NCBI GenBank assembly: GCA_900318465.1
Contig: ONKQ01000016.1
Location: 1 to 55,793 of the forward strand
Direction: 5' to 3'
Source: an uncultured Bacteroidales bacterium
GTDB taxonomy: Bacteria > Bacteroidota > Bacteroidia > Bacteroidales > F082
DNA length: 55,793 nt
The translations under genes and the position numbers were made by a program. Below are positions 37,949 through 55,700 of the stretch, in pieces. Below the pieces are notes generated by a model that saw nothing but the letters and a program-made list of their open reading frames with translations, was not told the origin of the DNA and did not search any database. Within the stretch, counting starts at the first letter, position 1. Every line of letters starts with the position of its first letter.

Positions 37949-37955
37949 ACAGCAA

Positions 37956-38528
37956 ATGGAACAACGCTATTATATACACGAAAGCAGCTATGTCGACGAA
38001 GGAGTGACGATTGGCAATGGAACCAAGATTTGGCATTTTTGCCATATCCAAAAGGGTGCCGTGATTGGCGAGAACTGTTCGTTTGGACAGAATGTCAACG
38101 TTGGAAACAACGTGCACATCGGTAATGGTGTGCGTGTGCAGAACAACGTGTCGATTTATGAAGGTGTTGAGATTGAGGACAATGTGTTTTGTGGCCCAAG
38201 TTGTGTTTTCACTAATGTGACCACGCCACGGGCGCATTTTCCGGTGCATGGCGTGTATGCCAAAACCCGCATCTGTGAAGGAGCATCGTTGGGAGCCAAC
38301 AGCACGGTGGTTTGTGGCCATACGGTAGGCAAGAGTGCCCTCGTCGCTGCGGGTGCCGTGGTGACCAAAGACGTGAAACCCTACGCATTGATGGCTGGTG
38401 TGCCTGCCCGACAAATTGGTTGGGTGTGCGAGTGTGGTAAGCGTCTGGATGCCTCACTGCATTGTGAATGTGGACGGAAATACCAAGAAAAAAATGGAGA
38501 GTTAAGTTTATGCAATTCAGAGATTTAA
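37956..38528 (+). CDS. WbpD/WlbB-like sugar N-acetyltransferase with Cys-rich tail
   Basis: A 190-residue left-handed beta-helix acetyltransferase with many hexapeptide repeats (IGNGTKIWHF, IGENCSFGQNV, IGNGVRVQNNV, LVAAGAVVTKDV). The opening YYIHESSYVDEG and the loop PRAHFPVHG are typical of WbpD/WlbB, which acetylate the 3-amino group of UDP-GlcNAc3NA. The C-terminus adds CECGKRL and CECGRKY, four cysteines that look like a small zinc ribbon. The next gene is the matching aminotransferase type (WbpE), overlapping by 19 bases. In Porphyromonas this sugar is part of anionic LPS that anchors T9SS cargo. Confidence 0.87.
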   Translation: MEQRYYIHESSYVDEGVTIGNGTKIWHFCHIQKGAVIGENCSFGQNVNVGNNVHIGNGVRVQNNVSIYEGVEIEDNVFCGPSCVFTNVTTPRAHFPVHGVYAKTRICEGASLGANSTVVCGHTVGKSALVAAGAVVTKDVKPYALMAGVPARQIGWVCECGKRLDASLHCECGRKYQEKNGELSLCNSEI

Positions 38529-39640: not shown

Positions 39641-39653
39641 AGCGATAGTTGAC

Positions 39654-40775: not shown

Positions 40776-40812
40776 TTTTCATTTTGTTTATTGATTGTAT
40801 TTGAAAAAATCC

Positions 40813-40820
40813 TATTTTTG
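40813..40820 (+). promoter_or_regulatory. -7 promoter box for the polysaccharide operon
   Basis: TATTTTTG matches TAnnTTTG. A leader of about 140 bases precedes the ABC permease gene at 40969; I see no clear hairpin in it. It marks a second transcription unit in the sugar region. Confidence 0.55.
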
Positions 40821-40968
40821 CAGTTTGATAAGTGCGAAGGGAAAAGTTGTTGGATTCAATGCAAAACAGAGTTTTGTTGGCTCTTATAAAAGGCAGAATA
40901 TTAGTGATTTATGTGCTTTTTAATGGGAGTCAGAACAGCGGAGCTATATAATTTCAGAAAACGACAAA

Positions 40969-41850
40969 ATGGCACAATCTGTTACTGAAAACGAAAATTG
41001 GACTACAGTCATCAAGCCTCGAAACAAATTATTCGAGGTGAATTTAAAAGAAATATGGGACTACCGTGACCTGTTGACACTTTTTGTGAAGCGTACCATC
41101 ACGGTTCAATACAAACAGACCATCCTTGGACCTTTATGGTGGATTATCCAGCCAGCCTTCACAGTCATCATGTACATGGTGGTGTTTGGCGGCATCGCAG
41201 GTATCCCTACAGACGGCATTCCCCAACCATTGTTCTATTTGGGAGGTGTTGCCATGTGGCAGTATTTTTCTGATTGTTTGGGTAAGGCATCCAATACTTT
41301 CGTTTCCAATGCGGGCATTTTCGGCAAGGTGTATTTTCCGAGGATGATTATGCCATTAGCTGATTCTATTAGCAACTTGGTGCGATTCAGCATACAGATT
41401 GGTCTATTCGTTATAGTATATCTTTATTATGTAATTGTAGGCCAATCTCCTAGTCCCAATTGGTATTTGTTGTTGTTCCCATTGTTGGTAGTCATGATGG
41501 CAGGGTTGGCTTTGGGATTTGGCATCATCATTTCTTCCATGACAACAAAGTATCGCGATTTACAGATCCTGTTTTCATTCTTTGTATCATTGTGGATGTA
41601 TGCTACGCCAATCGTTTATCCTTTGAGTCAGGTGGCCGGTAAGCAAAGATTTGGCCTTGATTTGACAACACTGATGTGCCTCAACCCTGTGACCCCTGTC
41701 ATTGAGACTTTTAAACATGGAGCACTTGGTGCAGGTGAGTTCATTGGTTGGGGCTGGTTGGCATATAGTTTCGCCTTTATGATAGTCGTTTTGACTCTTG
41801 GCATCCTAATTTTTAACAAGGTGCAGAAGAGTTTTATGGATACGGTTTGA
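40969..41850 (+). CDS. ABC-2 polysaccharide exporter permease (Wzm-like)
   Basis: A 293-residue inner-membrane protein with six membrane segments. The N-terminal cytoplasmic stretch (EIWDYRDLLTLFVKRTITVQYKQTILGPLWWIIQP) is the hallmark of Wzm/TagG/KpsM-type permeases that flip undecaprenyl-linked glycans or other glycolipids. The ATPase partner (Wzt) normally lies directly downstream but is absent in the 15 kb that follow here; it may be outside the window. It is the first gene of the long sugar operon. Confidence 0.9.
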   Translation: MAQSVTENENWTTVIKPRNKLFEVNLKEIWDYRDLLTLFVKRTITVQYKQTILGPLWWIIQPAFTVIMYMVVFGGIAGIPTDGIPQPLFYLGGVAMWQYFSDCLGKASNTFVSNAGIFGKVYFPRMIMPLADSISNLVRFSIQIGLFVIVYLYYVIVGQSPSPNWYLLLFPLLVVMMAGLALGFGIIISSMTTKYRDLQILFSFFVSLWMYATPIVYPLSQVAGKQRFGLDLTTLMCLNPVTPVIETFKHGALGAGEFIGWGWLAYSFAFMIVVLTLGILIFNKVQKSFMDTV

Positions 41851-41870
41851 GATAGTTGCAAACAAAGAAA

Positions 41871-42986
41871 ATGAACGAAGACAGAATCTTGGTTACGTCC
41901 CCTTTGCTTCCGGATCTTGATGAGTTCCACGAATTATTGAAAGAGATTTGGGAGAGTAAGTGGATTACCAACAACGGGAAGTTCCACCTACAGTTGGAAA
42001 AGGCTTTGTGTGACTATTTGGGTGTGGAGTATTTGAGCCTCTTCACCAATGGCACCTTGCCATTGATTACCGCTTTACAGGCCATGCATATTACAGGAGA
42101 GGTGATTACTACACCATATAGTTTCGTGGCTACCACCCATGCTTTGTGGTGGAATGGTATTAAGCCGGTGTTTGTGGATATAGACCCTTCCAATTGCGGC
42201 CTTGACCCTGATAAAATTGAGGCAGCAATTACTCCGAGAACGACGGCCATTATGCCTGTGCATTGTTATGGAAATCCCTGTGATACGGAACGCATTCAAG
42301 CTATTGCAGACAAGTATGGTTTGAAAGTGATTTATGATGCAGCCCATGCTTTTGGTGTGGAAGTAAATGGAGAGTCAATCCTGAATCATGGCGACATGTC
42401 CACAATGAGCTTTCATGCTACCAAAGTGTTTAACACGGCTGAGGGTGGAGCATTGATTGTTAAAGATGCCGAAACTAAAAAAAGAGTAGATTATTTGAAA
42501 AACTTTGGCTTTGCTGGTGAGACGGAGGTTGTTGCTCCAGGCATCAATAGTAAGATGGACGAGATCAGGTCCGCTTTAGGTTTGTTGAATCTGAAGCAGG
42601 TGGATGAAGCCATTGAGAAGCGTTATCAGGTTGCCATTCGTTATCGTGAGGCTTTGCGTGATGTGATTGGCATCCGTTTCTTTGACGACCTGCCAGGCGT
42701 AAGGCATAACTACAGCTATTTCCCCATTTTTGTTGACGCGGAACATTACGGCATGACACGCGACGAACTCTATTTCAAGATGAAGGAACAAGGTGTCTTA
42801 GGCAGACGATATTTTTATCCGCTTATAAGTACTTTCAGCACCTATCGTGGTTTGCCGAGTGCAAGTCCAGAGAATTTGCCCATAGCGACGCGTATTGCGA
42901 ATGAGGTGATTTGCTTGCCTATGCACCACAAGCTGAGTGATGAGGATATGTCAAGGATACTCGAACTAATTGTTGGAGAAGCATGA
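41871..42986 (+). CDS. DegT/DnrJ-family nucleotide-sugar aminotransferase (VioA/FdtB-like)
   Basis: A PLP enzyme of 371 residues from ATG 41871. It has the FTNGTLPLITALQ motif, TTPYSFVATTHALWW, YDAAHAFGVE and the PLP-lysine motif FHATKVFNTAEGG near 183. The pattern ITSPLLPxLxEF at the start and the FHATKxFxxxEGG motif are typical of aminotransferases acting on dTDP-4-keto or 3-keto-6-deoxy sugars. It should make the amino group that later genes acylate. It overlaps the ATP-grasp gene by 4 bases. Confidence 0.85.
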   Translation: MNEDRILVTSPLLPDLDEFHELLKEIWESKWITNNGKFHLQLEKALCDYLGVEYLSLFTNGTLPLITALQAMHITGEVITTPYSFVATTHALWWNGIKPVFVDIDPSNCGLDPDKIEAAITPRTTAIMPVHCYGNPCDTERIQAIADKYGLKVIYDAAHAFGVEVNGESILNHGDMSTMSFHATKVFNTAEGGALIVKDAETKKRVDYLKNFGFAGETEVVAPGINSKMDEIRSALGLLNLKQVDEAIEKRYQVAIRYREALRDVIGIRFFDDLPGVRHNYSYFPIFVDAEHYGMTRDELYFKMKEQGVLGRRYFYPLISTFSTYRGLPSASPENLPIATRIANEVICLPMHHKLSDEDMSRILELIVGEA

Positions 42987-44191
42987 ATAAACAGAAAAGG
43001 GTTTTAATGTTAGGCGGGTCTTTAGCACAAGTTCCATCTATCAAGAAAGCTAAAGAGATGGGTCTGTATGTGATTACATGTGATTATCTTCCTGACAATC
43101 CAGGACATAGATTTGCAGATGAGTATCACAACATAAGTACTACCGACAAAGATAAAGTGCTGCAATTGGCAAAAACTCTAGATATAGACGGTGTTGTTTG
43201 CTATGCCTCAGATCCCGCAGCTCCAACTGCGGCTTATGTTGCAGAGACTTTGGGGTTGCCCACATCGCCATATAAATCTGTTGATATCTTGTGTAACAAG
43301 TATAAATTTAGGAAGTTTTTGAAAGAACATGGTTTCTGCACCCCTAACACGGTGAGTTCTACAGATTTCGAAGATTTGTTCCGAAAAATCCAACAGTTGA
43401 GATTTCCAGTAATCATCAAACCAGTCGATTCATCTGGAAGTAAAGGTGTTTCTGTAATAACGAAAATAGAAGAATTGAAAGAAAGTTTTGATGCAGCTAA
43501 GCGTTTTACAAAAGATGGAAGGATAATTGTTGAAGAGTGCGTGGAGTCTATAGGTGCTCCTTTAGCTGGTGATGCTTTCTCAGTGGATGGAAAGTTGGCT
43601 TTTTGGGCGTTTAGTGATGACCATTTTGATATGAATTCTAGAAATCCGTTAGCACCCATATCTGAGACTTATCCTTATTCAAAATCAAAGATGATGCAGC
43701 TGAGAATTGTTAATGAAATCAATAGATTATTGGCTCTTCTTGACATGAAAACTGTTGCATATAACCTCGAAGCAAGAATTGATTCGAATGATAATATCTA
43801 TTTGATGGAAGTGGCTCCCCGAAACGGTGGAAATGGTATTCCGGAAGTTACAAAATACGCAACAGGTGTGGATATGATTGAATATACAATCAAAGCGGCG
43901 TTAGGAATGGATTGCTCGGATTTGCAGCAAAAAGAGGTAGATGGCTTTTGGTCCACATATATGGTACATAGCAATAAAGCAGGTAGGTTCGTTCGTATTG
44001 ATATTGATGAGGAATACAAAAGCAACAATTTTATAGAGTTTGAAACAGGGTTTAAACCTGGTGATGAAGTGATTGTTTTTTCGGGCTCAAATGGGGCCAT
44101 GGGAACAATGATTTCGAAATTTTCATCTTACGAAGAGATGATGGAAAAGACTTACAATTTCGAAAAGTACATAAACGTAATAGTGGATTAA
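42983..44191 (+). CDS. ATP-grasp ligase (carbamoyl-phosphate-synthase-like)
   Basis: A 402-residue ATP-grasp protein. The N-terminus KRVLMLGGSLAQVPSIKKAKEMG is a Rossmann-like pre-ATP-grasp domain; the nucleotide-binding core includes FPVIIKPVDSSGSKGV (about 136-151) and EECVESIG; the metal site is NLEARIDSNDNIYLMEVAPRNGG (near 260-275). ATP-grasp enzymes join a carboxylate to an amine through an acyl-phosphate. In a sugar operon the likely action is to attach an amino acid or other acid to an amino sugar. The gene is more AT-rich than its neighbours. Confidence 0.85.
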   Translation: MNKQKRVLMLGGSLAQVPSIKKAKEMGLYVITCDYLPDNPGHRFADEYHNISTTDKDKVLQLAKTLDIDGVVCYASDPAAPTAAYVAETLGLPTSPYKSVDILCNKYKFRKFLKEHGFCTPNTVSSTDFEDLFRKIQQLRFPVIIKPVDSSGSKGVSVITKIEELKESFDAAKRFTKDGRIIVEECVESIGAPLAGDAFSVDGKLAFWAFSDDHFDMNSRNPLAPISETYPYSKSKMMQLRIVNEINRLLALLDMKTVAYNLEARIDSNDNIYLMEVAPRNGGNGIPEVTKYATGVDMIEYTIKAALGMDCSDLQQKEVDGFWSTYMVHSNKAGRFVRIDIDEEYKSNNFIEFETGFKPGDEVIVFSGSNGAMGTMISKFSSYEEMMEKTYNFEKYINVIVD

Positions 44192-44228
44192 GGTTCTTGA
44201 CATTATTCTTTTTATAATTAGTCGAATT

Positions 44229-45197
44229 ATGAGAGACGCAATAGGTGGTTATTTTGAATTGGAATTACCTGACCATGGCGTTTTTCTTCACGATGATGGA
44301 GTGTTGCTCAATAGCGGAAGAAATGCATTGGAATTTGTGCTGATGGCGTTGGGTGACGTAAAATGCATATACGTTCCGTACTATACTTGTGATGTGGTAT
44401 TGGAACCAATACAAAAACTCAATATCCCTTACTCTTTCTATCATATAAACCATTATCTTGAATTAGATGACTTCCCCTCGCTAAAAAATGGTGAATACCT
44501 GATGTATACCAACTATTTTGGAATCAAGGACAAGTATATCAGTAAGTTAGCCGATTTATACGGCTTACGACTGATTATAGATAATGCGCAAGCGTGGTTT
44601 GCTGAACCTATTAAAGGACTTAATACCATTTACAGCCCCAGAAAATATGTTGGCTTGCCAGACGGAGGGGTTGCCTATTGCACGAAGTGCTTGGATGAGA
44701 GTTCCTTTGACCAAGATGTCTCATTTGAACGTTGTTCCCATCTTTTGAAACGCATCGACCTTGGCCCATCAAAAGGTTATTCTGACTTTAAAGAAAACAG
44801 CAATCAATTAGTAGGTCAACCCATCAAATGGATGTCGATACTGACAAAAAAGATGCTTTCTTCCATTGCCAATGAGGTGGTACTTGATAAGAGAAGAAAG
44901 AATTTTGAGTTCTTGCATTCCCGTTTGAAGAATGCGAATCGTTTTGAAATGCCTTCAATGGACTCGTTTGCCTGCCCCATGGTATATCCCTATCTAACAG
45001 ACGATCTGTCCTTAAGGCAACGGCTTATCAATAATATGGTTTTTGTTGCAACTTATTGGCCGAATGTGAAAGAATGGGCACCTAAGGGTGCGTTGGAACG
45101 AAAATTGATGGATAGACTAATTCCAATTCCATGTGACCAACGTTATGGAGAAAAGGAAATGTCAAATATCGTTTCCTTGGTTTTGGGAACGAAATGA
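44229..45197 (+). CDS. Divergent DegT-like PLP aminotransferase
   Basis: A 322-residue, short and divergent member of the DegT/DnrJ group. Visible are LLNSGRNALEFVL (PLP phosphate contact), VPYYTCDVVLEPI, IIDNAQAW (Asp on PLP ring) and SPRKYVGLPDGGV with the likely PLP Lys at about 142. It lacks parts of the C-terminal domain of normal members (~370). The specificity is unknown; a GNAT follows 28 bases on, so it may provide an amine for acylation. AT-rich. Confidence 0.7.
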   Translation: MRDAIGGYFELELPDHGVFLHDDGVLLNSGRNALEFVLMALGDVKCIYVPYYTCDVVLEPIQKLNIPYSFYHINHYLELDDFPSLKNGEYLMYTNYFGIKDKYISKLADLYGLRLIIDNAQAWFAEPIKGLNTIYSPRKYVGLPDGGVAYCTKCLDESSFDQDVSFERCSHLLKRIDLGPSKGYSDFKENSNQLVGQPIKWMSILTKKMLSSIANEVVLDKRRKNFEFLHSRLKNANRFEMPSMDSFACPMVYPYLTDDLSLRQRLINNMVFVATYWPNVKEWAPKGALERKLMDRLIPIPCDQRYGEKEMSNIVSLVLGTK

Positions 45198-45225
45198 TAT
45201 GAAATAATGTAAAAGTAGTAAACCT

Positions 45226-45858
45226 ATGCTAAAAGGAAAGATAGTGTATTTGCGCCTTTTTGAGCCGGGCGATTATGAGAAAACCTATTTATGGCATAAT
45301 GATCACGATTTAATGAGTACCACTTGTGGTCCTTTTCGGTTTGTGTCAAAAGAGATTGAACGGAGTTGGGTGCAGTCTAAATCGGAAAACAATCAAAAAG
45401 ACATTTATTTGGCAATTTGTGCTATAGAGAATGATGAAATGATAGGCTGGTATTCAATCTCCGATATTGATTATCTTAATCGCAAATGCCAATGTAGCGG
45501 TGTGGTGATTGGTGATAAGCGGTATTGTGATGGTGAGGCTTTTCAGGAAGTAGGTCATTTAGCCCTGGGTTATATTTTTAATGAGTTAAACATGAATCGT
45601 GTGACGGGTTCATGCCTTCGAGAACACATCATGTCTAGAGCTCAGATGGAGGCGAAATATTGGATATTGGAAGGTGTTGAGCGTCAAGCTGTGTTTAAAC
45701 TAGGTAAATACCATGATATATGTCATTATTCTCTATTAAGAGAGGAGTATTTATTGCATTTGAATAATGGTGATTATAACGATCGATTGATTATCCGTCG
45801 TGTAGCTGCTAAAATTAAGGAATTAAAAACAGAATTAAATAACAAAGATCAAAAATAA
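45226..45858 (+). CDS. GNAT-family N-acyltransferase (RimL-like)
   Basis: A 210-residue GNAT protein: the opening GKIVYLRLFEPGDYEKTYLWHND, the central strand EMIGWYSISDID and the acyl-CoA/ACP loop region DGEAFQEVGHLALGYIFNELNMNRV resemble RimJ/RimL and sugar N-acyltransferases. Its stop overlaps the start of an acyl carrier protein gene (TAATG), which suggests that it takes its acyl group from that ACP rather than from acetyl-CoA. Confidence 0.8.
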   Translation: MLKGKIVYLRLFEPGDYEKTYLWHNDHDLMSTTCGPFRFVSKEIERSWVQSKSENNQKDIYLAICAIENDEMIGWYSISDIDYLNRKCQCSGVVIGDKRYCDGEAFQEVGHLALGYIFNELNMNRVTGSCLREHIMSRAQMEAKYWILEGVERQAVFKLGKYHDICHYSLLREEYLLHLNNGDYNDRLIIRRVAAKIKELKTELNNKDQK

Positions 45859-46091
45859 TGAAAACATTAGAAGAATTCGTGTCTCTTTTTGCAGAACAAT
45901 TTGATGAAACAGATCCGAACGAAATCACAGCCAATACTGAATTTCACGATTTAGACGAATGGTCTTCTTTAATTGGCCTCTCGGTCATTGCAATGGTGGA
46001 TGAAGAATTTGAAGTTGCCTTGAAAGGAGACGACATGAGATCCTCTATTACGGTCGAAGACTTGTATAACAAAGTGTTAGCTCACCTCTGA
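45858..46091 (+). CDS. Acyl carrier protein (first of two)
   Basis: A 77-residue acidic protein of the ACP fold. The phosphopantetheine site is EWSSLIGL (Ser 37) in place of the standard DSL. It has helix II features (LSVIAMVDEEFEV) and ITVEDLYNKV at helix IV. It begins in the GNAT stop codon and ends at the KAS III start codon, so the three are made together. It is a dedicated ACP, not the housekeeping AcpP, which has a different sequence and sits with fabF. Confidence 0.85.
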   Translation: MKTLEEFVSLFAEQFDETDPNEITANTEFHDLDEWSSLIGLSVIAMVDEEFEVALKGDDMRSSITVEDLYNKVLAHL

Positions 46092-47152
46092 TGGCTTTTT
46101 TTGAAGTAAAGAATGTTAGGATTGCTGGCATGGCTGCCGGAGTGCCAGAGAAGGTGGTTTGTAATCTTGAGATTGAGAATATCTCCAACGATTATGATGC
46201 GGCCGCTTTTGTAGAGGTTACTGGAGTCAAAGAACGTAGGTTCGATGAACTTACCGTGTCGGATCTGGCTGTGCCTGCAGTTGAACGTCTTCTTCATGAC
46301 CTGGGTTGGTCGAAGGATGAGATTGAGGGGCTGTTCGTCGTTACCCAACATGGTGATTATATTGTTCCTGCCACTTCATGCATCATGCAAGATGTGTTGG
46401 GCTTCACAAAGGAATGTATGGCCATGGATATTTCCTTGGGTTGTTCTGGTTGGGTTTATGGTTTGAGTAGCGTGGCGAGTTTGATGAGTAATGGCATGTT
46501 GAAAAAATGCCTTCTCGTTAGTGGTGATGCTAGAAGACGGGTTGAGTTTGAAGATCCGTTGTTTGGTTATGCTGCTACTGTGACAGCACTTGAGTATCAT
46601 GAAGGCAACACAGGCTTTAAGTTTCATTTTGGTACAGATGGAAGTGGGTACGATGCCATAATCATTCCTGATGGTGGTGCCAGAAATCAGATTTCCGCGT
46701 CATCCTTTGTGCCTCAACAAGTGGAAGGGCGGTTTTATACCCCTTTGCAGTCTCGTATGAAAGGGATGGACGTGTTTTCGTTCGGCATTTCTATAGTACC
46801 AAAATCAGTAAAGAAGTTGGCCGAACAATTTGGGTTCGACTATTTGTCGTATGATTATCTAGTGTTGCATCAAGCCAATATGAAGATGAACAATATGATT
46901 GCCAAGAAATTGAAGTTTGAACCCTCCAAGGTTCCTTCTTCCATGTGGAATTTTGGCAATACTTCATCCGCTTCAATACCGTTGACAATTGTAACCCAAT
47001 TGAAGGATTCATGCGAAAAACATAGTGTTAATTTATTGTGTTGTGGATTTGGTGTTGGGCTTTCATGGGGTACGGTGGCCTTTAACTTGGATCATATTGT
47101 AATATCAAGCTTGGTTGAAGTAAATCAAAAGTGTAGATCGCAATGGGTGTAA
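46091..47152 (+). CDS. 3-oxoacyl-ACP synthase III-like protein (first of two)
   Basis: A 353-residue thiolase-fold enzyme of the FabH group. The Cys-His-Asn triad is present: Cys 118 in SLGCSGWVYG, His ~260 in VLHQAN, Asn ~290 in NFGNTSSAS. These start fatty acid chains by joining acyl-CoA or acyl-ACP to malonyl-ACP. The sequence is unlike housekeeping FabH and is near the form found in sugar-acyl and secondary metabolite clusters. It overlaps the following SDR gene by 10 bases. Confidence 0.88.
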   Translation: MAFFEVKNVRIAGMAAGVPEKVVCNLEIENISNDYDAAAFVEVTGVKERRFDELTVSDLAVPAVERLLHDLGWSKDEIEGLFVVTQHGDYIVPATSCIMQDVLGFTKECMAMDISLGCSGWVYGLSSVASLMSNGMLKKCLLVSGDARRRVEFEDPLFGYAATVTALEYHEGNTGFKFHFGTDGSGYDAIIIPDGGARNQISASSFVPQQVEGRFYTPLQSRMKGMDVFSFGISIVPKSVKKLAEQFGFDYLSYDYLVLHQANMKMNNMIAKKLKFEPSKVPSSMWNFGNTSSASIPLTIVTQLKDSCEKHSVNLLCCGFGVGLSWGTVAFNLDHIVISSLVEVNQKCRSQWV

Positions 47153-47895
47153 GTTATAATCCTTTTTCATTGGAAGGAAAGACCGTACTTGTTACAGGTG
47201 CTTCGTCAGGCATTGGTCAAGAGACGGCAATCCAGTGCTCTAAAATGGGTGCTAAAGTGATTGTGACAGCTAGAAATGAAGATCGGCTGAAAGAGACTTT
47301 GTCGCAATTGGAAGGCGAAGGTCATAGTATGTTTATCGCAGAACTGACTCAACAAGAAGAGTTGGAGAAGTTGGTGGGATCGATAAACGTACTTAATGGG
47401 GTTGTGCTTTGTGCAGGAAAAGGAATGACATCGCCATTTCCCTTCTCAACCCGTGGCAAATATGATTCTATCTTTGAGGTGAATTTTTTTGCTCCTATTG
47501 AGTTGTTACGACTTCTTGTCAAGAAAAAGAAACTTGAAAAAGACTCGTCGGTAGTTTTTGTTTCATCAATAGGTGGAGTCGATTCATTTCAAATGGGGAA
47601 CGGAGTATACGGTGCTTCAAAAGCAGCGTTGAATTCAATGATGAAGTTTTGCGCTAAAGAGTTGGCAGCAAAGAAAATAAGAGTGAACACAGTCAATCCG
47701 GGGATGGTGAATACCAAATTGATACAAGGTGGTGCCATTTCTGAAGAGCAACATAAAATGGATATGGAAAAATATCCACTGAAACGCTATGGCGAGCCCG
47801 AGGATATTGCTTATGGCATCATTTATCTTCTGTCAGATGCATCCTCTTGGGTGACCGGTCACTCGTTGGTGATTGATGGCGGTGTAACTATATAA
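47143..47895 (+). CDS. SDR oxidoreductase, FabG-like (first)
   Basis: A 250-residue short-chain dehydrogenase: VTGASSGIGQETA (cofactor loop, about 17-29), Ser in FVSSIGG, and the active YGASKAALNSM (about 154). The C-terminal IDGGVTI is typical of FabG-type ketoreductases. In this context it may reduce a 3-oxoacyl-ACP to the 3-hydroxy form. Confidence 0.88.
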   Translation: MGVSYNPFSLEGKTVLVTGASSGIGQETAIQCSKMGAKVIVTARNEDRLKETLSQLEGEGHSMFIAELTQQEELEKLVGSINVLNGVVLCAGKGMTSPFPFSTRGKYDSIFEVNFFAPIELLRLLVKKKKLEKDSSVVFVSSIGGVDSFQMGNGVYGASKAALNSMMKFCAKELAAKKIRVNTVNPGMVNTKLIQGGAISEEQHKMDMEKYPLKRYGEPEDIAYGIIYLLSDASSWVTGHSLVIDGGVTI

Positions 47896-47903
47896 TAAAG
47901 GTT

Positions 47904-48623
47904 ATGGGATTGTTAGATAATAAGGTTGCAATTATCACGGGTGCAGGCCGAGGAATAGGTAGGGTGATTGCCGAACAGTTTGTTGCCGATGGAGCAATAG
48001 TTTATGCTAATGATTTGAACGAGCCAGAGATTGATGGTGTGAGATCGATTTGCTTTGATGTTACTGATTCAAGCGCTGTCAAAGCTGGTTTGATGCAAGT
48101 CTATAAGGCGGAAGGCCGTATTGATTGTGTGGTGAACAATGCTGCCATTATTGCCAACCAGAAACTTGGTATGGTGACGAAGCCTCTATTGGAAAAAATG
48201 TATGCAGTTAATGTGTTTGCGGTTATTGAAATAATTCAAATAGCATCTCGTTTAATGGCACGGAATGGTGGCGGTTGTATTGTAAATATGGCATCTTTGA
48301 CAGGTGTGGTCGGTTCACCTGGTCAGGTGGCTTATTCGGCTTCAAAAGGTGCTGTGATAGCTTTGACCAAAAGTGCTGCTAAAGAGCTGTCACCAATGGG
48401 CATAAGAGTTAATGCTGTGGCACCAGGAATAATAAAAACAGAACGTTTTGAAGAGTTGTATGAAGCCAGTGGCGACAAAATAGATCAGCGTATCAGTCGA
48501 ATTGCACTTGGACGTCTTGGAACGCCTCAAGATGTAGCTAATGCAGTCGCGTTTTTAGCTTCTGATAGGGCTTCTTATATCAGTGGACAGATTATGGGAG
48601 TGGACGGTTGCGCATCAATATAA
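47904..48623 (+). CDS. SDR oxidoreductase, FabG-like (second)
   Basis: A 239-residue SDR: ITGAGRGIGRVIA at 11-23, NNAAI, Ser in NMASLTG and YSASKGAVIAL (about 149). It ends in GVDGCASI. It is closer in form to FabG than the first SDR. Two ketoreductases in a row suggest either two carriers or two substrates. It starts 8 bases after the first SDR. Confidence 0.88.
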   Translation: MGLLDNKVAIITGAGRGIGRVIAEQFVADGAIVYANDLNEPEIDGVRSICFDVTDSSAVKAGLMQVYKAEGRIDCVVNNAAIIANQKLGMVTKPLLEKMYAVNVFAVIEIIQIASRLMARNGGGCIVNMASLTGVVGSPGQVAYSASKGAVIALTKSAAKELSPMGIRVNAVAPGIIKTERFEELYEASGDKIDQRISRIALGRLGTPQDVANAVAFLASDRASYISGQIMGVDGCASI

Positions 48624-48629
48624 AGTTGT

Positions 48630-50018
48630 ATGTTCCTTGATTTAGACAAAAAGCCGAAAGATAAGGTTGCTGCCATTGACGACAGTGGAGCAAGCTTGAC
48701 TTATGGGGAAATATGTGGTTTTATTTCACGTTTTACTCATGCTTTACCGCAACGTTCTTTGTTTTTCATATTTGCCGAAAATAAAATTGGTTCATTGTTG
48801 GGTTATGTCGGTGCGTTGTCGTCAAGTGTTGTGCCTTTGGTGATTAGTGCCAAAACCGAAAAAACGCTGTATGAGACCTTGCGTGACAAGTATTCACCAG
48901 CCTATCTGTGGGCACCTAATGAAATGCTGCCAGGTTTGGGTGGTGAAATAACAGACTTTTCTGAAGCAGGGTATACTTTGGTGAAAACTGGCTTGCAGTC
49001 TCCCGCTTTGTATGAGGATTTGGCCTTGTTGCTTCCCACATCGGGAAGTACGGGTAGCCCTAAATTGGTTCGACATTCCTATCGTAACATCGAAGCCAAT
49101 GCGTTCAATGTATTGCGCTTGTTTGGCCTGACGGAGAATGAACATCCTATGGCCGTTTTGCCAATGCACTATACAATGGGTCTATCGGTGATTTCCAGTC
49201 ACTTGTTGGCAGGGGCAACCTTGATTCTTTCGGGTCGCTCGCTCTTGGATAAAGGCTTTTGGCAGATGATGCGTGAACATCGTGTCACTTCTTTTACCGG
49301 TGTGCCATACAGTTATGAGCTATTATCGAAGTTACGTTTCTTTCGAATGGATTTGCCGGATTTGTATACCATCACACAAGGTGGTGGCAAAATGACGGAA
49401 GAACTGTTTAAGGCTTATGCCGATTATGCGGAACAGAAAGGCAAACGATTCATTGCCACATACGGACAAACGGAATGTACTGCGCGCATGGCTTATCTGC
49501 CTGCCGAACTTGCCACGACGAAAACTTGTAGCATTGGCATAGCCGAGCCTGGCGGTCAACTCTCCATTATTGACAAGGATGGGCGTGAAACCTTTGAAGG
49601 AGAAGCAGAAGGCGAGATGGTGTATCGTGGCGAAAATGTCACTTTGGGTTATGCCACTTGTGCTGAAGACCTTTTGAAAGGAGATGAGAATTATGGCGTG
49701 ATGCACACTGGCGACCTTGCCCGCCGCGATGCTGATGGTTGTTATTTCATCATCGGACGCCTTAAACGGTTTTTGAAAATCTATGGCTTACGCATTGGAC
49801 TGGATGAAGTGGAGCAAATGGTCAAGGCTGAATTCAACACCGATTGCCATTGTAAGGGCGATGATGAAAAGTTAATAGTGTTGGTGACCGATGCCAGACT
49901 CAAGGAAGTGTTGCCTGCATTCATTGAGGGAAAAACCCATTTATTCCATCAACGAGTTGAGGTGCATGTGGTGAAAGAGATTATGAGAAACGAAACAGGG
50001 AAAGTGATAGACCAATAA
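48630..50018 (+). CDS. AMP-dependent acyl ligase (acyl-ACP synthetase-like)
   Basis: A 462-residue adenylate-forming enzyme. The phosphate loop LPTSGSTGSPKLV is at about 133-145, ATYGQTE near 283, HTGDLARRD near 355, GRLKRFLKIYGLRI near 375, and the C-terminal Lys in ETGKVI. It activates a carboxylic acid with ATP and may load it on one of the two ACPs, providing an unusual starter unit. The length is short for acyl-CoA synthetases (~550), closer to ACP-loading forms. Confidence 0.85.
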   Translation: MFLDLDKKPKDKVAAIDDSGASLTYGEICGFISRFTHALPQRSLFFIFAENKIGSLLGYVGALSSSVVPLVISAKTEKTLYETLRDKYSPAYLWAPNEMLPGLGGEITDFSEAGYTLVKTGLQSPALYEDLALLLPTSGSTGSPKLVRHSYRNIEANAFNVLRLFGLTENEHPMAVLPMHYTMGLSVISSHLLAGATLILSGRSLLDKGFWQMMREHRVTSFTGVPYSYELLSKLRFFRMDLPDLYTITQGGGKMTEELFKAYADYAEQKGKRFIATYGQTECTARMAYLPAELATTKTCSIGIAEPGGQLSIIDKDGRETFEGEAEGEMVYRGENVTLGYATCAEDLLKGDENYGVMHTGDLARRDADGCYFIIGRLKRFLKIYGLRIGLDEVEQMVKAEFNTDCHCKGDDEKLIVLVTDARLKEVLPAFIEGKTHLFHQRVEVHVVKEIMRNETGKVIDQ

Positions 50019-50025
50019 AAACAGC

Positions 50026-50265
50026 ATGACTAATTTAGAGAAACTGAATAGGATTTTTTGCGAGGTGTTCAATGTTGAGGAATCTGCTTTGGATAGCGGG
50101 TTCGATAAATGCAATATTGAAGGCTGGGATTCGGTGCGCCAGTTGAGTTTGTCGACGGCGGTTGAGGATGAGTTTGACATCATGCTCGATGCAGAGGACA
50201 TACTTGAGTTCACCTCATACGACAATGTTAATAGAATATTGGCCAAATACGAAATAGAACTCTGA
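50026..50265 (+). CDS. Acyl carrier protein (second of two)
   Basis: A 79-residue ACP with the phosphopantetheine site GWDSVRQL (Ser 36) and typical helices (LEKLNRIFCEVFNV, EFDIMLDAEDILEF). The stop overlaps the next KAS III start, exactly as for the first ACP/KAS III pair. Confidence 0.88.
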   Translation: MTNLEKLNRIFCEVFNVEESALDSGFDKCNIEGWDSVRQLSLSTAVEDEFDIMLDAEDILEFTSYDNVNRILAKYEIEL

Positions 50266-51332
50266 TGGCGTATTGGAGGATAAAAAATGTGGCTTTAAGG
50301 GGCGTTACAGGCACTGTGCCCAACAACCCTGTGAAGACGGCTGATTTACCCATATTCACACAAGAAGAGGCAAATCTGTTTGATGCTACTGTAGGCATTA
50401 AAAACAGATACATAGCACCAGAAAACATCTGTGCATCTGATTTGTGCTTTGATGCTGCTGAACGATTGGTTTCAGGATTGGGATGGGATAAAGAATCAAT
50501 TGATGTTTTGCTTTTTGCTTCTGTGACAGGAGATTATAAAACGCCTCCCACTTCTGCGATTCTTCAAGATCGGTTGGGACTTCCTGCAAGTACTTTTGTG
50601 CTTGATGTTCCTATGGGATGTTGTGGTTGTATGTATAGCATCAATGTAGCAGGTAATCTACTTTCGGCTGGATCTGCAAAACGGGCTTTGATGCTTGTTG
50701 GGGATACTGCCATGCGGATGGGCTCTCCCAAAGATAAGAGCCGTATGCCCTTGTTTGGCGATTGTGGTACTGCGTTAGCATTGGAATACGATACTTCGGC
50801 TGCAGATATCATTATTGATTTCAACACAATGGGTTCGGGCTATAAAGCGTTGATGACTCCTCATGGTGGGTATCGCTATCCCATAACAAAGGAATCTTTT
50901 GAGTATGAGGACTTTGGAGATGGTATTATCCGTGCTCCAAAAGATGCCTTGATCAACGGCATGGATGTGTTCTCTTTCGCGATTACCAAGCCTGCCATCA
51001 GCTTGAAAAAAATGCTTAATGATTTGGGGATTGACAAAGACAACGAGGTGGATTATTATCTGATACATCAAGCCAACAAATTAATAATAGACCGTATTGT
51101 TAAAAAATTAAAACTCCCTGTGGACAAAGTACCGTATAATCTTCATAGATTCGGAAACTTGGGAGGAGCTTCTCTCTTGATGCTTATGGTTTCGGAGATA
51201 GCTGATGAATTGCAATCAAGACCATTGACTTTGGTGTGTTCTTCGTTTGGACTGGGATTGACTTGGGGGACAATGGTGTGGAGGACAAAACCTTTATTAG
51301 TATTGGAAATGAATAAGATAAATGATTTATGA
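50265..51332 (+). CDS. 3-oxoacyl-ACP synthase III-like protein (second of two)
   Basis: A 355-residue FabH-like enzyme. Cys 119 in PMGCCGCMYS, His in LIHQANK and Asn in RFGNLGGAS make the full triad. It is related to the first KAS III (the starts WRIKNVALRGVTGTVP and FEVKNVRIAGMAAGVP line up), so the ACP/KAS III pair was duplicated long ago. It overlaps the next gene by 4 bases. Confidence 0.88.
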   Translation: MAYWRIKNVALRGVTGTVPNNPVKTADLPIFTQEEANLFDATVGIKNRYIAPENICASDLCFDAAERLVSGLGWDKESIDVLLFASVTGDYKTPPTSAILQDRLGLPASTFVLDVPMGCCGCMYSINVAGNLLSAGSAKRALMLVGDTAMRMGSPKDKSRMPLFGDCGTALALEYDTSAADIIIDFNTMGSGYKALMTPHGGYRYPITKESFEYEDFGDGIIRAPKDALINGMDVFSFAITKPAISLKKMLNDLGIDKDNEVDYYLIHQANKLIIDRIVKKLKLPVDKVPYNLHRFGNLGGASLLMLMVSEIADELQSRPLTLVCSSFGLGLTWGTMVWRTKPLLVLEMNKINDL

Positions 51333-52714
51333 GTGAGTTAGAGCATGATAAGTTGTTAAAAGAAGTCTGTTCGCGAGAAATAGGATGTGGTTTATACGAA
51401 GTCAAAATCGATGGCATTAGTGTCTATAATTATATTCGCCGAGATTGCCGTAATCGATTTATGAGTGAGTTTGGCCGTGGTGAAGGCATAAAGGATCCGT
51501 ATGTTCCACTAAACGAACGTAGAAAAAGTATCCTTATATCTTTTTGGCATTTTATTGAAATTGCATTTGGGAGGATTAGAGCCAATAATGTGATACGTTC
51601 TTTCGAGCGTATAGAATTTGTTAATGGTTCGTATGTGGATAAATTTACAGATCCAATTGTTGATTTTTCTAGTATTAATGAAAGTTTTTTAATTATCGAT
51701 CCTGGACGAAACGGAAGACATTTAAAGCCAAGAGCACATCAGAACAACATCGTTTATCCAGATGTGATTTATTGGCTGTCTTCTCGCTTGTTGAGGTTTA
51801 AGTTCATTAAAAAGAGATATATTAGGGAAAATGCAAAAGCGTTGGATGAACTATTCATTAAATTGAATAAGGCATTTCCAGAATATTTTATTGATATGGA
51901 TGGTATAACCCGTGCGATTCTTGAGCAGTCCTATATCAGATACTTTTATAGATGTCTTTTTAAGAAATTAAAAGTCAAAAGGCTATTTGCACCAGCTAGA
52001 GGAAGCTTTATGCATATGATACCAGCAGCCAAATTAGAGAATATTTGTGTATTTGAGCTACAACATGGGGTTACTTATGGTGAGTCACTTACATATTCAG
52101 GGTATATTGACCCTATGTTCTCTCCAGATTACTTTCTCGCTTTTAGCAAAATCACCAATCCACATAATTATGGCATGGAAGGAGATAGAATCGTTGAAAT
52201 CGGATGGGCATTTGAAAAGTATTTAACTTTGGTTGAGGGACAGGATTCCGGAAATAGTGTTCTTGTTATTTCTTCGCCTGAAATATCAGAGAAGATGATT
52301 GTTGTAACAAGTTTCTTGGCCTCACATAATCCGAGCGTAAAATTCTCTTTTAGGCCACATCCAAATGAGGTGTTGAATGAGGAAAAATTAAACGAATTGG
52401 GCAAATATGACAATATTGAGATTAATAATAACCTTGAGAATTTAAGCGTAACTTTGACAAAATTTTCATATATCATAGGAGAGAACTCTACGGCATTGTA
52501 TGAAGGATTAAATATGGGGAAAAATGTTGGAAAGCTTTTTTGGGGAGGGCTTCAGTCTAGGTATCTCAATGAAGATGATAAAAAGTATTTCTTTACCATT
52601 TCCAACAATGAAGACTTCAAGAATTTTATTAGAAGTCCGAAAGGCATTAAGCCTTCAAGAAAACTATATGAAACTTTTAACAAGAGGGCTTTTGAGAGTA
52701 TAATATTAAAGTAG
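51329..52714 (+). CDS. Putative GT-B-fold capsule/polysaccharide glycosyltransferase
   Basis: A 461-residue soluble protein. The second half looks like capsule or CDP-glycerol type transferases: FELQHGVTYGE, PDYFLAFSK, FRPHPNE near 348, and IGENSTALYEGLNMGKNV near 385. The N-terminal ~180 residues are charged and I do not recognise them. Function is inferred from motifs and the operon. It is AT-rich. Confidence 0.6.
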   Translation: MSELEHDKLLKEVCSREIGCGLYEVKIDGISVYNYIRRDCRNRFMSEFGRGEGIKDPYVPLNERRKSILISFWHFIEIAFGRIRANNVIRSFERIEFVNGSYVDKFTDPIVDFSSINESFLIIDPGRNGRHLKPRAHQNNIVYPDVIYWLSSRLLRFKFIKKRYIRENAKALDELFIKLNKAFPEYFIDMDGITRAILEQSYIRYFYRCLFKKLKVKRLFAPARGSFMHMIPAAKLENICVFELQHGVTYGESLTYSGYIDPMFSPDYFLAFSKITNPHNYGMEGDRIVEIGWAFEKYLTLVEGQDSGNSVLVISSPEISEKMIVVTSFLASHNPSVKFSFRPHPNEVLNEEKLNELGKYDNIEINNNLENLSVTLTKFSYIIGENSTALYEGLNMGKNVGKLFWGGLQSRYLNEDDKKYFFTISNNEDFKNFIRSPKGIKPSRKLYETFNKRAFESIILK

Positions 52715-52715
52715 T

Positions 52716-53738
52716 ATGTTAAATAATAAAACGGTTTTGATCACGGGTGGTACAGGCTCCTTCGGCAAGAAATTTGTTGAAGTTATCCTTCGCGATTATC
52801 CCAATGTGAAGAAAATCATCATTTATTCTCGTGATGAGCTTAAACAATACGAGCTGAAACTCAAGTATCCTGAGACCAATTATCCGATGATGCGCTATTT
52901 CATCGGGGATGTCCGTGATTTGGAACGTTTGATTCGTGCCTGCGAAGGGGTGGATGTCATCATTCATGCAGCTGCCATCAAACAAGTTGATACCGCTGAG
53001 TATAATCCCGAAGAGTGTATCAAGACCAATGTGCATGGAGCACAAAATGTCATTAAAGCTGCATTGGCCTGTGGCGTTCATGATGTGGTTGCCCTCAGTA
53101 CAGACAAGGCATGTGCTCCCATCAATCTTTATGGTGCCACCAAACTCACCAGCGACAAGCTTTTCACGGCGGCCAATAATATCAAAGGCTCAAAAGACAT
53201 TCGCTTTTCGGTAGTGCGCTATGGTAACGTCATGGGTTCGAGAGGAAGTGTGATACCGTTCTTCATCAAGCTTCGCGACCAAGGTGCCAAGGAAATCCCG
53301 ATAACGGATATGCGCATGACGCGGTTTAACATTTCGCTTGAAGATGGTGTGCAGATGGTGATGTATGCACTCGCACATCATATTGGAGGAGAGATATTTA
53401 TCCCCAAGATTCCATCATACCATATCAAGGATGTGGCCACGGCTATAGCGCCAAATATTCCTCAAGTGGAAGTGGGTATTCGTCCTGGAGAAAAGCTGCA
53501 TGAGGAGATGATCACTGTCACAGATGCGTTGGATACGATTGATTTGGGTAAGTATTATGTTATCATGCCTTCAGTTTCATTTGTACACAAGAGAGAGGAT
53601 TTCATCAAGCATCATAAAGCAAAGATGGTACCCGAGGGGTTTCACTATAGTTCGGATAACAATTCCGAATGGGAAACGGTGGAATCGATGCGCGAAAAGA
53701 TTCGTAGGTATGTTGACCCTGGTTTTTTGGTAAAATGA
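52716..53738 (+). CDS. pseB: UDP-GlcNAc 4,6-dehydratase (inverting) PseB
   Basis: First step of pseudaminic acid synthesis: UDP-GlcNAc to the 4-keto-6-deoxy-L-sugar. The 340 residues have NAD loop TGGTGSFGKKF (10-20), HAAAIKQVDTAEYNP, LSTDKACAPINLYGATK (the Lys catalytic form) and VRYGNVMGSRGSV. The inverting enzymes have this short, soluble form, unlike the membrane-bound retaining type. It is followed by PseC with a 4-base overlap. Confidence 0.92.
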   Translation: MLNNKTVLITGGTGSFGKKFVEVILRDYPNVKKIIIYSRDELKQYELKLKYPETNYPMMRYFIGDVRDLERLIRACEGVDVIIHAAAIKQVDTAEYNPEECIKTNVHGAQNVIKAALACGVHDVVALSTDKACAPINLYGATKLTSDKLFTAANNIKGSKDIRFSVVRYGNVMGSRGSVIPFFIKLRDQGAKEIPITDMRMTRFNISLEDGVQMVMYALAHHIGGEIFIPKIPSYHIKDVATAIAPNIPQVEVGIRPGEKLHEEMITVTDALDTIDLGKYYVIMPSVSFVHKREDFIKHHKAKMVPEGFHYSSDNNSEWETVESMREKIRRYVDPGFLVK

Positions 53739-54898
53739 TAGATCATATTATTCCATACGGCCACCAGTTTGTTACAGAAGAAGATATTAATGCTGTAATA
53801 GAGGTATTGAAGTCAGACTACATGACCCAAGGCCCTCGTATTGGGCAATTTGAGAAACAGTTTTCAGACTATCTTGGATGCCGATATGCTTGTATGGTCA
53901 GTAACGGCACAGCTGCACTGCATCTTTGTGCTATGGCATTAGGTATTAAGCAAGGCGATAAGGTGATTACTACACCGATTACTTTTGTGGCCAGCGCCAA
54001 TGGCTTCCGTTACTGCGGTGCAGAAGTCACATTCTGTGACATTGATGCCAAGACCTACTTGATGGATTTGGATAAATTGGAGCAAATTCTCAAAGCTTCA
54101 CCGAAAGGCACATACAAAGCTGTAGTTCCAGTTGACTTTGCTGGTTATCCTATAAATGAGGAACGCTTGCGCAAACTGGCCGACGAGTATGGTTTTGCCA
54201 TTGTGGTGGATGCTTGCCATGCACCAGGTGGCACCTTTATCGACAGCAAGGGTGAAAAGCAAAAGGTGGGCAACTGCAAATATGCCGACCTTACAGTTTT
54301 CTCGTTCCATCCTGTGAAACATATTGCTACAGGTGAAGGCGGTGCGGTTACTACCAACCGCAAGGATCTTTACGATAAAGTGGCGCTGTTCCGCACGCAC
54401 GGTATTACCAAAGACCCTGCGTTGTTGGAAAAGAATGATGGAGGCTGGTACTATGAAATGCAGGGACTAGGCTATAACTACCGCATCACCGAAATGCAGG
54501 CTGCTTTGGGTATGACCCAAATGTCGCGTCTGGATTGGAGTGTGAAACGCCGCAATGAGATTGCCATGCGCTATGATGAGGCTTTCAAGGGGACGGAAGT
54601 GACAACACCCTATAGACAGGATAATGTTGTTCATGCTTTTCATCTGTATGTCATTCAAGTAGAGGCGGACAAACGTAAAGGCCTGTATAATTATTTGAGA
54701 ATGAATAAGGTATATTCTCAGGTGCTTTATATTCCAGCTCACCTCATGCCTTACTATCGTCAGTTTGGTTGGAAGATTGGGGATATGCCAGTGGCAGAAG
54801 AATATTATGCTAAATGCCTTGCTCTGCCAATGTTCCCTACATTGACTGATGAGGAGCAGAATTGGGTGATTGAAAGTGTCAAGGAAGGTTTGAAATAA
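53735..54898 (+). CDS. pseC: UDP-4-amino-4,6-dideoxy-N-acetyl-beta-L-altrosamine transaminase PseC
   Basis: Second step of pseudaminic acid synthesis, PLP-dependent. The 387 residues have the start MIDHIIPYGHQFVTEED and MTQGPRIGQFEK, SNGTAALHLCAMAL, VDACHAPGG and FSFHPVKHIATGEGG with the PLP Lys near 193. The order pseB-pseC is the usual one. The later steps (pseH, pseG, pseI, pseF) are not in the window; they may lie beyond the insertion sequence. Confidence 0.92.
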   Translation: MIDHIIPYGHQFVTEEDINAVIEVLKSDYMTQGPRIGQFEKQFSDYLGCRYACMVSNGTAALHLCAMALGIKQGDKVITTPITFVASANGFRYCGAEVTFCDIDAKTYLMDLDKLEQILKASPKGTYKAVVPVDFAGYPINEERLRKLADEYGFAIVVDACHAPGGTFIDSKGEKQKVGNCKYADLTVFSFHPVKHIATGEGGAVTTNRKDLYDKVALFRTHGITKDPALLEKNDGGWYYEMQGLGYNYRITEMQAALGMTQMSRLDWSVKRRNEIAMRYDEAFKGTEVTTPYRQDNVVHAFHLYVIQVEADKRKGLYNYLRMNKVYSQVLYIPAHLMPYYRQFGWKIGDMPVAEEYYAKCLALPMFPTLTDEEQNWVIESVKEGLK

Positions 54899-54905
54899 AT
54901 CAATA

Positions 54906-55700
54906 ATGATGAAAACTCCGATTGTCAGCGTAATTGTGCCGGTTTACAATGTGAGCCAATATCTGGATCAGTGTTTGGATTCTTTAGTCAATCAAACACT
55001 TTCTGATATTGAAATCATTTGTGTTAATGACGCATCAACTGACAACAGCTTGGAAATCTTGAAGTCATGGGGACAAAAGGATGAACGAATCCGAATCATC
55101 GACCTTCCTGAGAATCGGATGGTGGGAGCAGTTAGAAATATTGGAATGAAGACTGCAAGCGGAGAGTATTTGGGATTTTTGGATTCAGATGATTATGTCT
55201 CGTATGACTTCTATCAATCTTTAGTGGATGCATTAAAGCCTGGTATAGATGTCGTCACCACAAAATATACCATGAGATTTGTTGAGCATTCAGAACAACA
55301 GTTGCTTCAATTCAATGACACGGTTGATCTTGATAATCAAGACTGCGTTAAAAGGTCCATTGCAGCATACGGTTGCCGGTTATGTGCTAGTATTTATAGG
55401 AGATCTTATGTCGTTGAGAATCAATTCCAATTTCCTGAAGGTGTCTTTTTTGAGGATAATCCGATAGTTCAGTGCATGTTTTTGGTTGCCAATCAGATTG
55501 TTGTTATTGATAACAAGTCTTCATTTTGGTGGTATCGAATCAATCCTTCATCCATTGTTCATAGCAGTTTTTCTGACAGAAAATTTTCAGATAGACTTCC
55601 CATGCAGTTGCTGATGTTGGAGAATTATCGAAAGTATCATCTTGCGGATATTTATAAGGAAGAATTCAGCTATCGTTTTTTTATAACTTTTTACCATTAG
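54906..55700 (+). pseudogene. Family 2 glycosyltransferase, truncated by an insertion sequence
   Basis: The 264 residues begin as a normal GT-A family 2 transferase: SVIVPVYNVSQYLDQCLDSL, CVNDASTDNS, and GFLDSDDYVS (metal-binding DxD). The reading frame ends abruptly in FITFYH and TAG, where an IS-end-like sequence starts (about 55698). Normal members run ~320-340 residues, so the C-terminal part is lost. The catalytic domain could still be made, but I would treat it as disrupted. Confidence 0.75.

Follow-up and report, generated by a model that had tools for sequence, protein, structure and literature searches.

A candidate sugar N-acylation cassette with two ketosynthase modules in a polysaccharide gene cluster of an uncultured Bacteroidales bacterium

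Introduction

Several glycan loci hold gene sets that resemble the one described here, an eight-gene acyl-chain cassette at positions 45226-51332 of contig ONKQ01000016.1 (assembly GCA_900318465.1) from an uncultured Bacteroidales bacterium. This contig of 55,793 nucleotides (nt), called C54 below and the window throughout, belongs to a 3.67-Mb draft genome, and the right window edge is the contig end. The O-polysaccharide of Flavobacterium psychrophilum carries a chemically determined 3,5-dihydroxyhexanoyl group on the 4-amine of Qui2NAc4N (PMC6519341). Its authors predicted that wfpC and wfpE encode ketoacyl synthases (KAS), wfpD an acyl carrier protein (ACP), wfpF a reductase, and wfpG a PglD homologue (PMC6519341). 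Strains that differ in these R-group genes also differ in the antigenicity of their lipopolysaccharide, which indicates that acyl groups on amino sugars matter antigenically (PMC6519341). In Pseudomonas syringae, vioS, vioR, acp, and vioB lead to N-(3-hydroxy-1-oxobutyl)-2-O-methylviosamine, and deletion of vioR strips the modified viosamine from flagellin (PMC3927599). Genes for an ACP, a reductase, an AMP ligase, LuxE, and LuxC occur in the flagellin islands of Aeromonas (PMC7874193) and Enterobacteriaceae (PMC4875605). The O antigen of Escherichia coli O123 has been reviewed as bearing an N-[(S)-3-hydroxybutyryl]-D-alanyl group on Quip4N (PMC10609480).

The window cassette encodes, in this order, a GNAT acyltransferase, ACP1, KAS1, two short-chain dehydrogenases/reductases (SDR1 and SDR2), an AMP-forming acid ligase, ACP2, and KAS2. 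Like wfpC-wfpG, part of an O-polysaccharide cluster in another member of the phylum, it combines two KAS, a dedicated ACP, a ketoreductase, and a sugar N-acyltransferase. However, the wfp set as described has one ACP, one reductase, and a PglD homologue but no AMP ligase, so that the second ACP, the second SDR, the AMP ligase, and the GNAT are extra in the window when the two are compared by description only. The P. syringae vioA/vioS/vioR/acp/vioB genes are similar in joining a dTDP-viosamine aminotransferase, a KAS III, a reductase, an ACP, and an acyltransferase, whereas that island, from another phylum and devoted to a flagellin glycan, has one KAS and one reductase, yields 3-hydroxybutanoyl, and lists no ligase among its seven genes. 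The flagellin islands likewise place an ACP, a 3-oxoacyl-ACP reductase, and an AMP-dependent ligase among glycan genes, which in Aeromonas include pse genes. They differ in their LuxE and LuxC genes, which gave no match among the 19 window proteins scanned, and the island descriptions used here name no KAS. An earlier reading of the window from its sequence (the original prediction) had cited the P. syringae precedent correctly (PMC3927599); it knew of no description in Bacteroidales with ATP-grasp and Pse genes, and a precedent from Bacteroidota, wfpC-wfpG, is in print (PMC6519341). We found no Bacteroidales description of the cassette gene order in the open-licence literature. The kind of cassette is therefore already known, in Bacteroidota too, whereas the variant with its own acid-loading module looks new. 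The features shared with the wfp and vio types are ACPs with the phosphopantetheine Ser, KAS III proteins apart from FabH, and an SDR ketoreductase beside the KAS. Because a GNAT replaces the PglD/VioB type, we regard the cassette as a variant and not as a plain wfp or vio member.

Starting from the observed genes, motifs, conserved order, and gene company, we propose that the cassette is a dedicated line of discrete enzymes, similar to type II fatty acid synthase (FAS II) or polyketide enzymes, that makes a short hydroxylated acyl group and N-acylates a nucleotide-activated 4-amino-4,6-dideoxyhexose of a surface polysaccharide. We give this outline of a dedicated N-acyl-sugar cassette a probability of about 0.7; the order of the steps is much less certain. 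Relative to the original prediction, this outline adds the division into two modules, the conservation of the block around the ligase, the exchange between PglD and GNAT, and a likelier acceptor.

Gene organization and catalytic residues of the cassette

All eight open reading frames are intact and lie on the + strand: GNAT (45226..45858; Pfam Acetyltransf_3, 40.5 bits), ACP1 (45858..46091; PP-binding, 20.7 bits), KAS1 (46091..47152), the FabG-like ketoreductase SDR1 (47143..47895), SDR2 (47904..48623), the AMP ligase (48630..50018; AMP-binding, 140.8), ACP2 (50026..50265; PP-binding, 23.2 bits), and KAS2 (50265..51332). Their spacings are -1, -1, -10, +8, +6, +7, and -1 nt, so the genes overlap or lie at most 8 nt apart, in the order originally predicted. 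The score of ACP1 is 0.1 bit below the Pfam cut-off, and ACP1 is not among the 8 matches of the whole-genome search. Alignments confirmed the earlier statement that the catalytic residues are complete in both KAS III proteins and that both ACPs have their serine. All 21 aligned KAS, KAS2 among them, share the Cys118, His260, and Asn290 of KAS1; in the larger tree set the Cys is present in 207/207 non-FabH sequences, and the His and the Asn each in 206/207, the remainder being a gap. The carrier Ser is at its canonical place in the two ACPs (W-S-S-L and W-D-S-V, compared with A-D-S-L in another ACP of this genome), and SDR1 and SDR2 retain the catalytic Ser and the Tyr-x-x-x-Lys motif.

Against the FabH model TIGR00747, KAS1 and KAS2 scored 168.2 and 155.7 bits, below the cut-off of 292.1. 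In a tree of 227 KAS sequences, 20 control FabH proteins formed a separate group with support 1.0, and both cassette KAS fell outside it, which rules out an identity as housekeeping FabH. Since, in addition, sugar genes accompany such KAS more often than they accompany FabH controls, the cassette KAS genes are, judged by sequence, not housekeeping genes. The genome has two further FabH-like genes, whose neighbours we read as FabF, ACP, and FabG; the names FabF, FabG, and FabZ at the genome's other loci come from reading the sequences and not from a model run. Contigs C8 and C16 carry two very similar FabH-like/ACP/SDR loci with FabH-like proteins that are 96% identical, a pair that reflects either a duplication or a mixed assembly.

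Occurrence and gene company of related KAS loci

Relatives of KAS2 (E up to 1e-40) were found in 61 of the 295 genomes of the order and relatives of KAS1 (E up to 1e-60) in 21 of the 395 genomes of the phylum search, the genome of the window being counted in both. We pooled 40 loci from the KAS2 search, 20 from the KAS1 search, 80 from a scan of named genomes (the best 80 of at least 581 relatives), and the window; these 141 loci gave 136 distinct ones after five were dropped whose best KAS was identical to that of another. The loci had been picked by similarity, and their gene company was counted within 8 kb of the best KAS. Controls were 20 of the 35 TIGR00747 matches above the cut-off, which replaced an earlier control, the genome's own FabH-like gene, for which only 2 of 45 genomes, the source genome included, gave a match.

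An ACP was present in 129/136 loci and an SDR in 123/136. Both occurred together in 117/136 loci, the window included, compared with 0/20 FabH controls, a contrast that is somewhat inflated toward the test set by family profiles built from the test loci. With an acyltransferase (GNAT or hexapeptide) added, the count was 101/136 against 0/20; the single-gene counts at the controls were 0 for ACP, 1 for SDR, and 1 for acyltransferase (a GNAT). The order ACP-KAS-SDR was found in 102/136 loci, a second KAS in 72/136, an AMP ligase in 39/136, and an aminotransferase in 48/136. FabD was present in 6/136, pointing to malonyl extension. An aminotransferase, a sugar-phosphate transferase, or a dehydratase accompanied the KAS in 65/136 loci compared with 1/20 controls. 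Under a looser rule, for which a single label out of GT2, GT4, hexapeptide, aminotransferase, sugar transferase, and dehydratase was enough, 85 of the 136 were sugar loci, 37 were of a GT2-GNAT type, and 14 were neither. The original prediction had named a main occurrence in lipid or polyketide loci that lack sugar genes as the finding that would speak against it; with sugar company in 65 (strict) or 85 (loose) of the 136 loci, this is not what was found, and we rejected a lipid-only locus on the same neighbourhood counts.

Two conserved modules and the AMP ligase

In the KAS tree, KAS1 falls into a group of 16 sequences with support 1.0 (lower within the group); all 16 KAS genes are followed by an SDR, and 13 of them come directly after an ACP. 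In the window, ACP1 and SDR1 are the probable partners of KAS1. KAS2 belongs to a group of nine (support 0.916), and an AMP ligase lies at most two genes away in 7/9 of these, compared with 2/16 in the KAS1 group and 9/147 among all other KAS from sugar loci or loci without a label, a set that contains the KAS1 group; no p-value is attached to these counts because the sequences are related. SDR2, the AMP ligase, ACP2, and KAS2 recur together, their respective identities being 83, 74, 87, and 86% in L158, 65, 66, 57, and 72% in L163, 80, 79, 67, and 77% in L271, and 63, 45, 47, and 62% in L277. Both L158 and L163 are close versions of the cassette, and L271, from the same genus, is a close version without KAS1. 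By these comparisons, SDR2-AMP ligase-ACP2-KAS2 forms a conserved block, the new feature here, besides ACP1-KAS1-SDR1. The ligase, earlier suggested as a possible feeder of an unusual starter, is a part of this block and not an optional addition.

In L277, from another family of the order, the exact seven-gene order ACP-KAS-SDR-SDR-ligase-ACP-KAS is preserved. Where the window has the GNAT, L277 has a PglD-type transferase. Behind the seven genes come a sugar transferase, an aminotransferase that scored best with the LegC family model (346 bits, cut-off 420), and a dehydratase of 644 aa; these flanking genes read as bacillosamine-type. A similar arrangement is seen in L163, where DegT_B (see below) and a PglD type are followed by ACP-KAS-SDR-HEX-SDR-AMP-ACP-KAS. 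The L271 locus occupies the same chromosomal place as the cassette, since the genes on its left side match, with DegT_A and DegT_B 86% and 84% identical; here a 154-aa protein replaces the GNAT and the DegT-like gene. Three other genomes of the same genus that were listed gave no match to KAS2 or the ligase at the thresholds used. In L272, PglD-SDR2-ligase-ACP2 was found, with no KAS within the 20 kb read.

Among 393 genomes searched, seven others had a relative of the AMP ligase. LuxE/LuxC-type genes lie behind the ligase in L274, L275, and L276, and a transketolase pair is present in L273, L274, and L275; the LuxE/LuxC matches exceeded the Pfam cut-offs in L275 and fell short of the NCBIfam ones in L274, while the L276 LuxE/LuxC genes and the L273 and L274 transketolases were read from sequence, position, and length. 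This company, and the resemblance of AMP ligase, ACP, and KAS to small polyketide loci, could point to a free lipid or polyketide-like metabolite as the product, with the sugar locus a chance location. Against this, sugar genes and acyltransferases recur around such KAS but seldom around FabH controls, the exact order stands in L277 beside PglD, aminotransferase, and dehydratase genes, and sets of ACP, FabG, AMP ligase, LuxE, and LuxC have themselves been reported from islands for flagellin glycosylation; we consider such a metabolite very unlikely. The solved structures closest to the ligase include oxalyl-CoA and feruloyl-CoA synthetases and luciferases, all below 90 bits, from which no substrate was readable. 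Split transketolases stand alongside the LuxE/LuxC-type genes in L274 and L275, and split-transketolase-like genes occur, by sequence, within ACP/AMP-ligase acyl cassettes in L061, L194, and L273.

The sugar acceptor and the surrounding cluster

The polysaccharide cluster spans 37917-55700 and consists of genes for a hexapeptide transferase, DegT_A, a sugar-phosphate transferase, an ABC-2 transporter, DegT_B, an ATP-grasp ligase, a DegT-like protein, the cassette, a putative glycosyltransferase, PseB, PseC, and a GT2. The aminotransferase DegT_B (41856..42986, +) is the likely maker of a 4-amino sugar acceptor. Its best NCBIfam model is DesI, the model for dTDP-4-dehydro-6-deoxyglucose aminotransferase, its best solved relative is 2po3, and it resembles dTDP-4-keto-6-deoxyglucose aminotransferases. 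Relatives of DegT_B (554-692 bits) occur at the cassettes L160, L163 (75% identical), and L167, of which L160 and L167 likewise pair it with the KAS1 set, and rmlB is present in the genome above its cut-off. The likeliest acceptor, as far as gene similarity can indicate, would therefore be the 4-amino sugar of DegT_B and not pseudaminic acid (Pse).

PseB (52716..53738, +) and PseC (53735..54898, +) passed their NCBIfam cut-offs and lie closely downstream of the cassette. Together with a weak match of the GNAT to the PseH model TIGR03585 (24.9 bits, cut-off 93.1), this could mean that the cassette makes a 7-N-acyl pseudaminic acid, with the product of PseC as acceptor and the GNAT as a divergent PseH; 3-hydroxybutyryl is known on Pse. 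A plain PseH was rejected on the same score. At the end of contig C123 (L106), however, three genes lie together that encode PseF, a protein of 336 aa whose C-terminal half resembles PseH, and PseI. The 336-aa protein scored 92.2 bits against PseH, 0.9 below the cut-off, and its N-terminal half is GNAT-like by eye. This contig end probably continues the cluster of the window across the contig break; the ends of C54 and C123 are not joined in the assembly, so that the pse linkage is inferred. Since PseF, the PseH-like protein, and PseI lie there, Pse probably has a transferase of its own. In L271, moreover, the top matches to PseB and PseC over the 20 kb read reached only 29% and 28% identity. 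We regard a Pse acceptor as improbable, and the upstream aminotransferase DegT_B would give a likelier one than PseB/PseC.

The ATP-grasp ligase (42983..44191, +) may add an amino acyl step between the amine and the acyl group. ATP-grasp genes lie beside the acyltransferase in L157 and L168 as well and occur also in L095 and L099. An amino acid between sugar and acyl chain is conceivable at such loci, by analogy with the E. coli O123 group (PMC10609480).

The neighbours differ in part from the earlier account, which had placed the cassette directly after two DegT aminotransferases and an ATP-grasp ligase and before pseB/pseC. DegT_B is near; the other clear DegT aminotransferase, DegT_A (38468), is distant from the GNAT, and the gene directly before the GNAT encodes a DegT-like protein (44229..45197, +) with no Pfam or NCBIfam match and with relatives in L158, L068, and L094. 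On the other side, the pse genes follow in order, with a putative glycosyltransferase gene (51329..52714, +; 461 aa) in between that overlaps KAS2 by 4 nt. Its protein had a weak match to the BFO_1060 family (23.6 bits, cut-off 200), and a single-sequence structure model of it (mean pLDDT 30) was discarded.

Proposed pathway

The substrates, the number of rounds, the ACP-KAS pairing, the transfer, and the acceptor that we infer are as follows. The AMP ligase would charge ACP2, the proposed starter carrier, with a small carboxylic acid that is made or trimmed by SDR2. KAS2 would join this acid to malonyl-ACP1, ACP1 being the proposed elongation carrier, and SDR1 would reduce the keto group to a hydroxyl. 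KAS1 would add a second malonyl unit, after which SDR1 may act again. The hydroxyls would stay on the chain, because the scan of 19 cluster proteins gave no match to a dehydratase family and showed no enoyl reductase; the label 'Enoyl-ACP reductase' on SDR1 and SDR2 is the Pfam name of a general SDR C2 model. As the last step, the GNAT would take the completed chain off the ACP and place it on the amine that DegT_B makes. With acetate as the starter, the chain would be the 3,5-dihydroxyhexanoyl group known from F. psychrophilum. The original prediction of a dedicated FAS II-like set among polysaccharide genes is supported. A longer or differently started chain is likelier than plain 3-hydroxybutyryl because the cassette has two KAS and two SDRs of different groups.

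The loci with the SDR2-ligase pair hold no KAS gene (the L272 stretch), one (L271), two (the window, L163, and L277), or three (L158), which suggests that the number of KAS genes sets the chain length. This idea has a two-point basis by analogy, namely one KAS and one round in the vio system and two KAS and two rounds in the wfp system. It is possible, though we hold it only tentatively, that these loci are plug-in lines in which a fixed starter module (SDR2-AMP ligase-ACP2) is combined with a number of KAS III that sets the two-carbon units, with a GNAT or PglD-type transferase, and with whatever 4-amino sugar the locus makes, an ATP-grasp amino acid lying between in some strains. If the proposed function is correct, Bacteroidota, many of whose named relatives here come from gut and rumen samples, would diversify their surface glycans with custom acyl groups from small swappable polyketide-like modules, and the KAS gene count predicting chain length would be a testable rule.

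The acyltransferase and points against the proposal

The genes for the GNAT and ACP1 share 1 nt. Among the genomes searched, the GNAT relative with the highest score (143.5 bits, 40% identity; best elsewhere 131.1) is the first gene of a multi-KAS cassette with an AMP ligase (L260/L194), where it shares 8 nt, its stop codon among them, with the gene that follows. These two observations, together with the habit of GNAT or PglD enzymes to accompany such cassettes, link the GNAT to the cassette and support its earlier assignment as a cassette part. A GNAT relative was present in 3/14 cassette genomes searched, and the 10 kb read around each of the other two relatives showed no gene of a cassette. 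A PglD/VioB-type acyltransferase was not found in the cassette, the GNAT standing in its place; VioB has a hexapeptide fold, and the hexapeptide gene of the cluster (37917) adjoins DegT_A. A loss of the coenzyme A (CoA) pyrophosphate motif, which would have spoken for ACP as the donor, was considered, but alignment with 1nsl leaves a G-x-A remnant by eye, and nothing follows from it. Four tandem GNAT genes related to that of the window lie after a PseC-like gene in L092 (8927-11445).

Several points weigh against the proposed function. In ten other GNAT neighbourhoods (L091-L100), no gene is labelled as ACP or KAS, and in L091, L092, L094, L095, and L099 the GNAT comes just after a PseC-like gene, with an ATP-grasp gene between in two (L095 and L099) and a DegT-like gene in one; the GNAT could accordingly be an ordinary acetyl-CoA enzyme. 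DegT_B reaches 302 bits with the DesI model, far below the cut-off of 650, while PseC is above its own. The 14 loci of neither kind in the survey include the supporting loci L158 and L194, whose sugar genes lie further off or outside the stretch read, and the loose sugar rule also applies to 2/20 FabH controls, one control having a GNAT. A KAS-SDR-GT2-GNAT order occurs in 39/136 loci and represents another conserved locus.

The GNAT might instead belong to the upstream aminotransferase-ATP-grasp block and simply acetylate the amino sugar with acyl-CoA, or cap an amino acid on it, the product of ACP1 to KAS2 being moved by another enzyme such as an O-acyltransferase. The absence of a KAS label from L095 and L099, where relatives of the GNAT follow PseC-like and ATP-grasp genes, is consistent with this, and the 154-aa replacement in L271 has a GNAT match of 13 bits (E 0.13). 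The overlap with ACP1, the cassette headed by the best-scoring relative, and the GNAT or hexapeptide acyltransferase found with ACP and SDR in 101/136 loci all argue for the GNAT as a cassette enzyme, and we consider its membership in the upstream block rather unlikely.

The KAS-SDR-GT2-GNAT loci often carry flippase, sulfotransferase, and MBOAT genes. A widespread Bacteroidota locus of this type, found in L048 (3880-17634) and also in L038, L044, and L052, has in L048 the order TPR/PMT-like, AMP ligase, ACP, opposite-strand ligase-ACP fusion, KAS III, SDR, GT2, GNAT, sulfotransferase, Wzx flippase, and MBOAT.

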